Shown here piece by piece: positions 1 through 7,289 of a stretch of 33,078 nucleotides of DNA (the stretch's first letter is position 1; every line of letters begins with the position of its first letter). The DNA lies in assembly GCA_025363555.1 (NCBI GenBank), contig JANYDQ010000040.1:1-33078 (forward strand), in the 5' to 3' direction. The notes beneath the pieces were generated by a model. The model did not search any database. It saw nothing but the letters and a program-made list of their open reading frames with translations, and was not told the origin of the DNA. Source of the stretch: Bacteroidota bacterium. Its GTDB lineage: Bacteria > Bacteroidota > Bacteroidia > 2-12-FULL-35-15. Both the position numbers and the translations under genes were made by a program.

Positions 1-985
<985 letters not shown>

Positions 986-1380: not shown

Positions 1381-1903
1381 ATTTTTTATTTTTTTTCGGA
1401 GTTATTAACAATTATGGTGATGGTATGCCCAAAATCGAACAGGCAATGGGGTTTTAAGAGTAACTAAAAATATGTTAAAGATTCTATTTAATGTAAAGCT
1501 TACCCTTATACTTCATATAAAGAAGCAATGCTTTTTATTGCAGCACCATCTTTTCCCTGCTGTGAGCCCGCCCCAGGCTTATACCTGAACAAATACACCC
1601 TGCATTTATTTCTCTTTTGAAAAGAATGCAAAAAACAACTAAATTAAATGCAAAAGCACTGCACCAGCTATAACAGGAGGCAAAAACCGGGTAGCAGATA
1701 AGAAGGCAGGGGAGTCGCAGGTTAAAGCAAGTGGACTAAAATAAGTAACGAATGGTAGAGAAATAAGCGAAAAAACGACCCAAATGGACAAATAAGCATA
1801 ATAAAGAGAACCGGAAAAGAAAACATAAACAGAAAAAAAACAAGGATAAGCTGCTTCCACCAGCCTAAATTTGCAAAAAAGCGCCAAAAAACGCACTCGT
1901 TCA
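1381..1903. other. Gene-poor stretch upstream of the rRNA operon
   Basis: I see no convincing gene here. An 85-codon minus-strand frame (1639-1896, GTG start) is open, but it is Phe/Leu/Cys-rich with no family resemblance and looks like chance. A possible decayed T9SS tail lies at 1535-1612 and is listed separately. The remainder is AT-rich with no tRNA or terminator that I can defend. Confidence 0.5.
1535..1612 (-). pseudogene. Possible relic of a T9SS C-terminal sorting domain
   Basis: Read on the minus strand, this segment gives VYLFRYKPGAGSQQGK and then, after a one-base shift, MVLQ and a TAA stop. The pattern GVYxxRY...QQGKMVxQ-stop resembles the last 20-25 residues of T9SS type A sorting domains, as does the intact one ending at 2288 (KMVVQ). 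No matching body of a gene is visible upstream, so at best it is a short remnant. The match is short and could be chance. Confidence 0.3.
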
Positions 1904-2155
1904 GTCGTACACAGTCGCTGTGAGGTCGTGCATAGTAGCTGTGAAGTCGTTCATAGTAGCTGTGAAGTCGTGCACAGTCGCTGTGAAGTCGTGCACAGTC
2001 ACTATGACGTTGTGCATACTCATTATGACGTTGTGCACACTCACTATGATGTTGTTCATACTTGCTATGAGGTTATGTACAGTCGCTATGACGTTAAGCA
2101 CACTCACTATGACGTTAAGCATAGTTACTGTAATGTGAGTACAGTCTATTATAAT
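1904..2155. repeat. Degenerate 21-bp tandem repeat, about 12 units
   Basis: Twelve consecutive 21-bp blocks start at 1904, 1925, 1946 and so on. In the first eleven, eight columns are invariant (g1, t2, a8, a10, t12, t16, t18, a20), and most other changes are transitions. Units 1-5 read like gtcgtgcacagtcgctgtg and units 5-10 like gttgtgcacactcactatg. The last unit is decayed and seems to have lost a base. Several units contain CACAG-TCG-CTGTG, a small palindrome. Because 21 is a multiple of 3, three frames stay open: 1871-2173 plus, 1920-2138 plus and 1901-2122 minus, each encoding heptads. It lies between the rrn promoters and a decayed surface-protein gene. There are no unique spacers, so it is not CRISPR. 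Confidence 0.93.
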
Positions 2156-2201
2156 ATTTTTTGCAATAAATAAAAGTGGAATATATTTATTTTAAAGTTT
2201 C

Positions 2202-2287: not shown

Positions 2288-4402
2288 CTATTGCACCACC
2301 ATCTTTCTTCTCACTTCCCTGCCTGCTGTATTCATCACCTCCACAAAATAAACCCCTTCTTGCATTCCACCTTTTTCTATCACACAATCTTTACCCGAAA
2401 AATGAATGGTTTTTAGTTCCTTACCTAATACATCGGTTATTTTTATTGTAGTGTTCTTCTGTGATTCGCTAAAGTTAATGGTGGTGGTAAAGGTAAAGGG
2501 GTTAGGAAAGATGGTAAATGAATTACTACTACTATTTTCAGCTAACCCAACCGAATAAAACAATACACAAGCAGAAGTGTCTATACAATTGCCAAGACTA
2601 ACCGATACAGCATATTGACCATTTGAGGTGGCAACATAAGCCTGGTTAGTTGCATTTGTTATTAAAACAAAACCATTTATTCCACAACCATACCATTGAT
2701 AAGTGGCACCGGGTTGATTGGAGGTTAATGTATCCATTGTCTGTGTTATCCCGGTATTAATGGTGTTTACTGTTACTGTTGATATGGCAGTGTTTGAACA
2801 GTTATTTGAAGTTCCTGTAATTGTATAAGTAGTTGTGGTAATAGGCGAAGCGATTGCAGAATCAGTATTTACAGGTATTGCACCAGAACTCCAGGAATAA
2901 GCACTTCCTCCATTTGCAATTAATGTCGTTGTTTGCCCTGCACATATTGTTGGTGAATTAACGGTAATGGTTGGTGATGGGTTTACCGTAACGTTTGTTA
3001 TTGCAGTTTTTGTACAACCATACGAATTTGTTCCGGTAACAGTATAAGTGGTAGTAACGGTTGGCGAAACCGTTGCAGTGTTAACTCCTGTTGGTGTTGC
3101 GCCTGCGCTCCATGTATAAGAGGTTGCACTACCACTAGCCGTTAAGGTTGCTGTTTGCCCTGCACAAATTGTTGGGGAATTTACTGTAACATTTGGTGCA
3201 GGATTAATGTTAACAGAAAAATAGTAATATTGAGGTCACATCCAACAAGCATTATTTGTTAACATAATAGTATAGAGAACTGTACAAGGTGTAGTTCCGG
3301 CATTAACTAATACATCATTAATAGTGTTGCCACCTGATGAAAACCCGGTAATACAAGAAGGTGATGAATGACTTATGCTAATTGTAGCGGTACAATTCAA
3401 ATATATCGAAGGAACATAAGAAACTGTTTCCCCTGAACAAATTGTCTGATTGGTTGGAGGGTTATTTAGAGAAGGTGCCTGATATGAAATGGTTTGCCAA
3501 AAGCTCATTGGAGAAGTGCAACCATTTACTGTTATTGTAAGCGAAAAATCCGTTTGAGTAGAACAAGAGGAAAAATTAGTGTTGGGTATCGCAGAATAAT
3601 TAAATGAAGTCGAACCGTTAGAAGGAGTTCCTCCTGTCCAATTGTAGATTGCTCCTGCAACAGAAGAGGTTGACAAATTTACCCAATCTTCGCCACAAAC
3701 ACCATTAAATGGTCCTATAATACTTGGCGCAGCCATAGCCGGACAACCAACCGTCAAAATCGCATTCGCACTTGTTACAGAACTTCCACCTCCTCCTCCC
3801 CCTCCAATACCACAATGATTTGTTATCACCACATGATATGAATTTCCATCCATTCCAAACACAACCGGATTAGCATAAAAACTATAAATAGAAGTATGCC
3901 CAACTGTATCAATAGTAGTTTTAACCAATGTACCTGGGTTTAGATACCAACGATAGGTAAAAGGTGGAGTGCCATTTACAGTTACAGAAAACGAAATAGT
4001 AGTAATGGTACCTGCTGTAAAAGTTTGGGATAAGGGTTGTATAGAAATGGAAACAGGAATACAGATTAAATTTACAGTATTGCTTGTTATCGAATTTAAA
4101 CCGGAACAATTGGTGATTATACAATAATAAGTATTGTTACTATCTGCCATTGTTAGCGGAGGTGTATTAAAAGTATTGGTTGCAGAAGCACTATTAACAG
4201 TGCTATCCACCACCACCCCATTTACATACCAGTAATAATTATAAGGCAAACTTCCGGAAACTGTAACACTAAAATGGGCAGCTCCCGGAATGGAATCGTT
4301 TTGGTTTTGAGGTTGGGTAGTTATAGAAACGGAAGTGCATTGTGCCATGCAAAGATGCTGAAAGACTACTGATAGTAAGAAAAGGAATAGTAGTTTTTTC
4401 AT
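2288..4402 (-). pseudogene. Large secreted Ig/PKD-like T9SS cargo protein split by an in-frame TGA
   Basis: One reading frame runs 705 codons from ATG at 4402 to TAG at 2288, broken only by a TGA at 3236-3238. The upstream half (388 aa) has a signal peptide (MKKLLFLFLLSVVFQHLCMAQ), then Ig-like segments (QPQNQN...YYWYVNG, QPLSQTF...YRWYLN) and a Gly-rich stretch (GIGGGGGGGSS). After the stop, 315 codons continue in the same frame with two similar repeats (NSPTICAGQTxTL...TTYTxTGT). They end in a type A sorting domain (SFTIFPNPF...GVYFVEV...KMVVQ). Such proteins are exported by Sec, crossed over the outer membrane by T9SS and displayed or released. TGA is an ordinary stop elsewhere in the window (gene ending at 24616), so the split is a nonsense mutation, a sequencing error or, less likely, readthrough. 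Without the second half the product lacks its sorting signal. Confidence 0.85.
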
Positions 4403-6845: not shown

Positions 6846-7289
6846 ATGTTATTAGACTTAACCGTATCAAAATCCATTGAAATAAATGCATCCCCTGAAA
6901 AGGTGTGGGAAGGGTTAACAAATCCTGATATTATTAAACAATACCTGTTCGGAACAGAAACCATTACGGATTGGAAACCGGGCAGTGATATTATATTTCA
7001 AGGGGAATATAAAGGAACAAAATATAAGGACAAAGGTGTTGTGCTTGAAAATGTATTGCACAAATTAATCCGGTATAAATACTGGAGCGGGTTTTCAGGC
7101 GTGGAAGATAAACCCGAAAATTATAATGACGTAATTTATACCTTGCAAACTGCCGATGCTAAAACCTCCACTTTCACCTGGACACAAAAAGGATTTGCAA
7201 CCGAAGAGGGTTACAAACATTCGCTTGCAGGAATGGATGATTTCCTGAAACTACTAAAGGAAGAAATAGAAAAAACAAACACTATTTAA
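6846..7289 (+). CDS. SRPBCC / AHSA1-like domain protein
   Basis: This 147-aa protein has the AHSA1-type START fold pattern. It opens with VSKSIEINASPEKVWEGLTNPDIIKQYLFG, then DWKPGSDIIFQGEY and the late F-x-W-T-Q strand, and ends with the long C-terminal helix (MDDFLKLLKEEIE). Such proteins bind hydrophobic ligands or act as cochaperone-like modules, but members of this bacterial subgroup are mostly uncharacterised. It follows the DUF1697 gene by 11 bp and is followed by a bidirectional terminator that separates it from ftsZ. Confidence 0.85.
   Translation: MLLDLTVSKSIEINASPEKVWEGLTNPDIIKQYLFGTETITDWKPGSDIIFQGEYKGTKYKDKGVVLENVLHKLIRYKYWSGFSGVEDKPENYNDVIYTLQTADAKTSTFTWTQKGFATEEGYKHSLAGMDDFLKLLKEEIEKTNTI

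Follow-up and report, generated by a model that had tools for sequence, protein, structure and literature searches.

A run of 21-bp units lies head to tail at positions 1904-2155 of a 33,078-nt stretch of DNA from a Bacteroidota bacterium (the window, by which we mean the whole stretch analysed), and the locus raises the question of what kind of object this repeat is. A sequence-only reading had put forward three candidates: a minisatellite, a cluster of protein-binding sites about two helical turns apart, or a gene for a short heptad-repeat peptide. The window corresponds to contig C106 in an assembly of 4.3 Mb and carries chromosomal dcw genes. The array is flanked by a 16S rRNA gene, whose 5′ end faces it, and by a surface-protein gene, which turns its 3′ end towards it. 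The features of the locus are as follows.

1..983, minus strand: 16S rRNA gene (Rfam), 5′ part, with the 5′ end at 983; a neighbour outside the element
1738..1903, plus strand: leader of the dispersed element, which aligns with the copy on contig C351 and partly with that on C11
1871..1880, no strand assigned: left arm, TTGCAAAAAA, of a perfect 10-bp inverted repeat around the array (partner arm at 2157-2166)
1876..1900, plus strand: core adjoining the array, AAAAGCGCCAAAAAACGCACTCG-like, common to all five family members (read from the loci)
1904..2134, no strand assigned: in-register array of eleven 21-bp units (TRF and unit alignment)
2135..2171, plus strand: degenerate, shifted twelfth unit (to 2155) and a short tail common with the C351 copy (alignment)
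2157..2166, no strand assigned: right arm of the 10-bp inverted repeat that brackets the array (partner arm at 1871-1880)
2288..4402, minus strand: neighbour outside the element, a gene with one in-frame stop that encodes a surface protein with Ig- and PKD-like domains

The array proved as regular as the sequence-only reading had described it. Eleven 21-bp units fill 1904-2134 with no indel and with 8 of 21 columns invariant, and the only break in register comes with a weaker twelfth unit at 2135-2155, shifted by one base. Mean unit identity is 80% to the consensus and 72% pairwise. TRF reports periods of 21, 42 and 63 over 1903-2116 with 0% indels, and a 20-mer of the window unit gave 5 matches at up to 3 mismatches, versus none in 100 shuffles. 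The unit alignment also bears out the palindrome claimed for the early units, CACAG-TCG-CTGTG, a dyad with 5-bp arms that drifts in later units. The perfect 10-bp inverted repeat that brackets the array may be due to chance, because its score of 10 in our flank test is reached by 9 of 84 arrays, with 2.7 expected.

Three of the six frames (+0, +1, -0) are open across the array, as had been said, but this is less noteworthy than it was taken to be, since a period divisible by three produces it: at least one frame is open in 83 of the 94 arrays in the catalogue described below, and three or more in 41 of them. We reject the peptide gene. The window's open frames (+0, +1, -0) carry 1, 1 and 2 stops in the homologous copy on C351, the copies on C187 and C28 have other frames open, and 87 of the 94 arrays lie outside ORFs of at least 150 aa, by mechanical ORF calls whose exceptions include plain coding heptads. 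The neighbouring genes had also been thought to add interest. The surface-protein gene at 2288-4402 (minus strand) has about 700 codons and a single in-frame TGA, either a sequencing error or a recent pseudogene; as it is otherwise open, calling it decayed was too strong. The 16S rRNA gene, on the minus strand, has its 5′ end at 983 and is the sole Rfam match in the window. Proximity to rRNA is not a general feature, for on the other four contigs with members of the same family Rfam found none.

Those contigs came from a genome-wide search for the window unit, a check that the sequence-only reading had proposed, which found related copies on C351, C187, C28 and C11. The copy on C351 comprises the whole leader, array and tail, matching window positions 1738-2171 (434 bp) at 83%; that on C11 has the leader plus barely more than one unit; those on C187 and C28 have units plus the core of about 25 bp adjoining the array. 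Unit number differs among the copies. Long inverted repeats are not seen at the ends of the window element, which has only an A/T-rich 10-bp pair beside the array. Neither the leader nor the element was found in 58 relatives, of which 35 belong to the same genus and 23 to the same class; six of them give element matches at E ≤ 0.01, each of only 20-30 bp. Neither the window element nor two exact patterns matched any viral contig or plasmid searched. The motif AAAGYGCCW occurs within 90 bp of 7 array edges (0.7 expected); we rejected it as a common flank motif of the wider class, as 4 of the 7 edges belong to the window family. Contig C187 also holds two arrays of different 21-mers about 210 bp apart (L150:7417-7605 and 6974-7204), one with the palindromic core TCGCGTACGCGA, and an array-bearing relative, G004, has two more close pairs (L118:13139 and 13510; L133:8098 and 8539).

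Taken alone, the window array is a fairly ordinary dispersed minisatellite; its class is strange. While reading the window-family copies we noticed other arrays of period 21 and unrelated sequence. A lag scan of 46 sequences over lags 8 to 41 found 16 regions at lag 21, whereas no other lag gave more than 2; some of the 46 sequences overlap, so the 16 regions are not 16 separate arrays. With thresholds that were chosen with the data in view, the scan gave 37 lag-21 regions in seven genomes versus none in 30 stretches (548 kb) from 16 other genomes of the genus. Arrays were also seen in a sample of 20 contigs of the window genome picked by number. All-N stretches were left out, 5 of 20 in this sample and 2 of 20 in a further one.

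Nearly all periods are 21 or one of its multiples. TRF, a method independent of the lag scan, agreed with it: for the six clade genomes (837 kb), meaning the window genome with its five closest relatives, it assigned such a period to 46 of 59 arrays, leaving the next relative, G034, out of the count. In 74 kb, G034 shows one or two arrays as well as, beside ftsZ (L119:4857-5094), a 7-bp microsatellite (GAATAGG-like) that mimics lag 21 and is distinct from the 21-bp arrays. In two more distant genomes, G059 and G060 (242 kb), the figure was 52 of 54, bringing the eight array-bearing genomes to 98 multiples of 21 among 113 arrays. Period 20 occurred once and period 22 never in the clade and these two genomes. 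In the comparison sets, 1 of 9 arrays from the 16 genus genomes (548 kb) and 1 of 21 from the remaining FtsA loci (1.27 Mb) had such a period. We picked G059 and G060 for the arrays in their FtsA loci; we added 20 further stretches by contig number, two of them on previously matched contigs, and the lag scan of the added samples found 32 regions in 136 kb (G059) and 15 in 106 kb (G060).

Our non-redundant catalogue holds 94 arrays. Density is 29-67 arrays per Mb in six clade genomes, 14 in G034, 229 in G059 and 141 in G060; on extrapolation the window genome would hold about 140 arrays and G059 about 870. The count for the window genome (G000; 12 arrays in 359 kb) is not blind, as C351, C187, C28, C11, C202, C134 and part of C315 were chosen from search matches. 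Contigs of G059 and G060 often begin or end within 21-bp arrays (L247, L249, L253, L254, L255, L260, L264, L265). The arrays therefore break short-read assemblies, and their true length is probably underestimated. The term minisatellite thus fits as a description of head-to-tail units, but overlooks the many arrays of the same period and different sequence in this genome and its kin. That the window array belongs to a lineage-specific, genome-wide, mostly intergenic class of 21-bp minisatellites is a conclusion that we hold at about even confidence.

We used FtsA to place the trait among relatives. The named FtsA neighbours of the window genome are uncultured Bacteroidota, mostly metagenome bins, and in a ranking by FtsA identity the array-bearing G026, G014, G004, G011 and G013 stand at 93-97%. 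Among 80 named FtsA loci we found two further array-rich genomes, CAIMUP01 (G059) and CAIWCG01 (G060), more distant Bacteroidota in which the trait is stronger than in the window clade. An FtsA tree of 81 rows resolves the seven array-bearing rows into two clades (support 100/99 each); G026 and G034 were placed by FtsA identity only. The tree forces two changes, none of 200 bootstrap trees allows one, and the trait needs at least two origins on it. Being built on a single protein, the tree does not distinguish parallel origin from a factor passed on by horizontal transfer.

Where the arrays sit is not random with respect to gene orientation. In the genus, 27 divergent, 97 tandem and 32 convergent gaps measure 400-4000 bp; of these, 11, 10 and 3, respectively, contain arrays. 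Longer gaps hold more arrays, and at equal gap length the preference for divergent gaps has odds of about 3.8 (permutation p 0.007). In one orthologous interval, a single case picked because G004 has arrays there, all four species carry arrays, and their units are unrelated. Two side observations concern contig C2 of G004. Between an array pair and the next gene lies a short frame (L133:8690-9419) with relatives at several sites in each sister genome, perhaps a mobile gene. At L133:1-3123, 2.75 kb matches G034 (C263:21578-24331) at 98%, whereas other aligned DNA is at about 72%; this may be a recent transfer or a contaminating contig.

Pairwise similarity of units between arrays is at the shuffled level except for the window family and one G014/G004 pair, so that nearly every array has its own unrelated 21-mer. 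Arrays hold 4-16 copies with a median length of 189 bp. Edge units are less like the consensus than inner units (identity 0.78 versus 0.90), and within arrays adjacent units are slightly more alike than distant ones. Register is good and imperfect: flanking units are shifted by one or two bases, and indels amount to 2.8% versus about 21.6% mismatches. Inverted repeats scoring at least 11 flank 7 of 84 arrays (0.8 expected); we saw no excess of insertion-type direct repeats at array flanks.

Many units are themselves palindromic. A dyad score of at least 6 is reached by 25 of 84 units, versus 4.9% of intergenic 21-mers and 2.1% of shuffles; the other 59 have no strong dyad. Dyad arms are more conserved than the rest of the unit (0.87 versus 0.79; higher in 23 of 29 arrays), and a column-permutation test for dyads reached p 0.05 in 15 of 37 arrays, with p 0.047 for the window array. 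Compensatory double changes are not in excess (28 versus 23.4 expected, 1400 pair cells in 26 dyad arrays), and the stems of the same 26 arrays show no G-U bias (64 versus 67 A-C), on which grounds we rejected an array of RNA hairpins. Enriched dyads with conserved arms and no compensatory excess point to a role as DNA or in the birth of arrays, not as an RNA stem. Along the unit, conservation is high in one block and low in another (k=1 power, z 3.1), and a helical-face signal at 10.5 bp is not clear (k=2, z 1.7).

We searched 22 genomes, 8 array-bearing and 14 others, for six protein families, and none of the six tracks the arrays. Counts of the Y1/RAYT transposase (PF01797) do not follow them. 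Reverse transcriptase (PF00078) is missing from the array-bearing G026, G014, G004 and G059. LytTR proteins (PF04397) are fewest where arrays abound, 2 in G059 and 4 in G060 versus 3-23 elsewhere. Ku (PF02735) occurs in 1 of 8 array-bearing genomes versus 5 of 14 others. The main MutS (PF00488) is found in 20 of 22 genomes without tracking arrays; a second MutS-like protein is lacking in all 8 genomes with arrays, but also in 7 of the 14 others. SbcD (TIGR00619) exceeds the cut-off in none of the 22 genomes, array-bearing or not, although it does so in 8 of 14 control genomes, and its absence over the cut-off would be a permissive background at most.

The best reading of these data, to which we give roughly an even chance, is local amplification with a ruler of two helical turns. 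A DNA segment of two turns (2 × 10.5 bp) would be duplicated and then re-duplicated locally to give an array. Duplication would be easiest at inverted-repeat segments in negatively supercoiled DNA, for example between divergent genes, where the twin-domain picture places supercoiling; cruciform extrusion under negative supercoiling would fit both the dyads and the divergent gaps. The step length would be set by some protein that holds, wraps, bridges, nicks or cuts DNA two turns apart. With a helical repeat of 10.5 bp, 21 is the smallest whole number of bases that gives whole turns, and a protein spanning two turns could thus make or tolerate only such steps. Some arrays may disperse later with flanking DNA, as the window array has with its leader. 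Established arrays probably act, if at all, as upstream DNA elements, either as protein seats or as absorbers of supercoils; changes in their length would keep the helical phase, and a role as RNA or peptide is not expected. We infer the local birth of arrays from their present sequences, not from comparison with an empty orthologous site. More tentative, and short of an even chance in our judgement, is the full form of this reading: that an unrecognised Bacteroidota machinery, gained at least twice, writes arrays de novo from local sequence in exact two-turn steps, preferring inverted repeats upstream of divergent genes and reaching about 230 arrays per Mb.

Much of the same evidence would suit operator clusters, in which a dimeric, sequence-specific DNA-binding protein reads each unit, the 21-bp spacing keeps the sites on one face of the helix, and neighbouring genes are regulated. 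Known LytTR operators are direct repeats about 21 bp apart. The enriched dyads with conserved arms and no compensatory drift (28 versus 23 expected) are as for a site read by protein, and the favoured upstream gaps and the block of conserved columns (z 3.1) agree. To that extent binding sites about two turns apart, as proposed from the window alone, could still describe these arrays, with dyads enriched, arms conserved in 23 of 29 arrays and divergent upstream gaps favoured. However, nearly every array has its own unit, the roughly 870 arrays extrapolated for G059 exceed any plausible number of cognate regulators, many units have no dyad, and conservation has no clear 10.5-bp signal (k=2, z 1.7). 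LytTR proteins, moreover, are fewest in G059 and G060 (2 and 4). We consider operator clusters unlikely.

Slippage during replication is the usual explanation of minisatellites and sets no fixed unit length. Neutral arrays of this origin, their common period an accident of lineage, would account for the decayed edges, the similarity of neighbouring units and the greater number of arrays in longer gaps, and SbcD below the cut-off in all 22 genomes may let palindromes persist. Such a process hardly explains why 98 of 113 TRF arrays, from unrelated seeds in two clades, are multiples of 21, or why divergent rather than convergent gaps are preferred, and we hold it to be improbable. Still more doubtful is a MITE-like mobile element with an internal minisatellite, of the BrickBuilt type. 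The window family does have leader, array and tail at several sites, and inverted repeats bracket some arrays (7 of 84 at a score of at least 11 versus 0.8 expected), yet flanking direct repeats are not in excess and a long inverted repeat was not found at the ends of the window element. An element of this kind would cover the dispersal of the window family at most, as the other arrays are unrelated and have no common leaders. We give very little credence to stacked hairpins of a structured RNA or to a short peptide of heptad repeats: the 5-bp-arm dyad of early units and the three frames open across the window array are met by the lack of compensatory excess and G-U bias in 26 dyad arrays, by stops in those frames in the C351 copy, and by the absence of any Rfam match in the window besides 16S rRNA.

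Scores to hundreds of unrelated arrays of one period per genome imply a molecular ruler on DNA. Since sister lineages with and without the trait occur in one genus, the origin of tandem repeats becomes testable here, and differences between them in gene content could reveal the factor. Should the arrays act in promoters, they would offer a genome-wide, phase-preserving way to tune upstream regions. As far as our searches show, the class is unreported: we found no literature report of a class of arrays with a fixed period, which is weak evidence of absence, as subscription papers and preprints were outside their scope.

Several known systems have individual features in common with these arrays. 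Plasmid iterons and LytTR operators are protein-bound direct repeats, likewise about two helical turns apart. Iterons, however, form one array beside an initiator gene and LytTR sites are paired, whereas here there are many arrays, each with its own sequence; we rejected LytTR operators, as LytTR regulators are not abundant where arrays are. A CRISPR array was rejected because the 21-bp units are head to tail, spacer-free and mutually diverged. REP/REPIN palindromes with RAYT are also short, intergenic and present in many copies, but REPs are one sequence that a Y1 transposase spreads over the genome; here each array has units of its own and PF01797 counts do not follow arrays in the 22 genomes, and we rejected this system too.

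The nearest published cases, as far as the parts of these papers that we consulted go, are a satellite survey, Borg repeats and BrickBuilt, and none has a fixed period across unrelated arrays. The satellites surveyed by Subirana and Messeguer (PMC6749651) resemble ours in that some species are rich in mostly short, unrelated, scattered satellites, but the sections seen describe no genome-wide fixed non-coding period. Borg repeats (PMC9879509) are likewise many, unique and independently arising, in some genomes but not in relatives; their units are perfect, variable in length, A-rich and about half within ORFs, whereas ours are diverged, of one length and, in 87 of 94 arrays, outside ORFs of at least 150 aa. 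We rejected Borg-type repeats, as the diverged one-length units lie on bacterial contigs, and the window contig carries chromosomal dcw genes. In Porphyromonas gingivalis, BrickBuilt (PMC4596501) is a MITE that contains a 23-nt minisatellite and varies in copy number. Like the window element, it is intergenic, has a leader and a tail around spacer-free tandem units about two helical turns long, and is dispersed within a single Bacteroidota genome. The resemblance is confined to the window family, which has leader, tail and several copies (whole on C351, leader on C11, core on C187 and C28), though terminal inverted repeats are not evident in it. BrickBuilt (PMC4596501) is one 23-nt family with terminal inverted repeats like those of insertion sequences, whereas here a single period of 21 runs through arrays of unrelated sequence.
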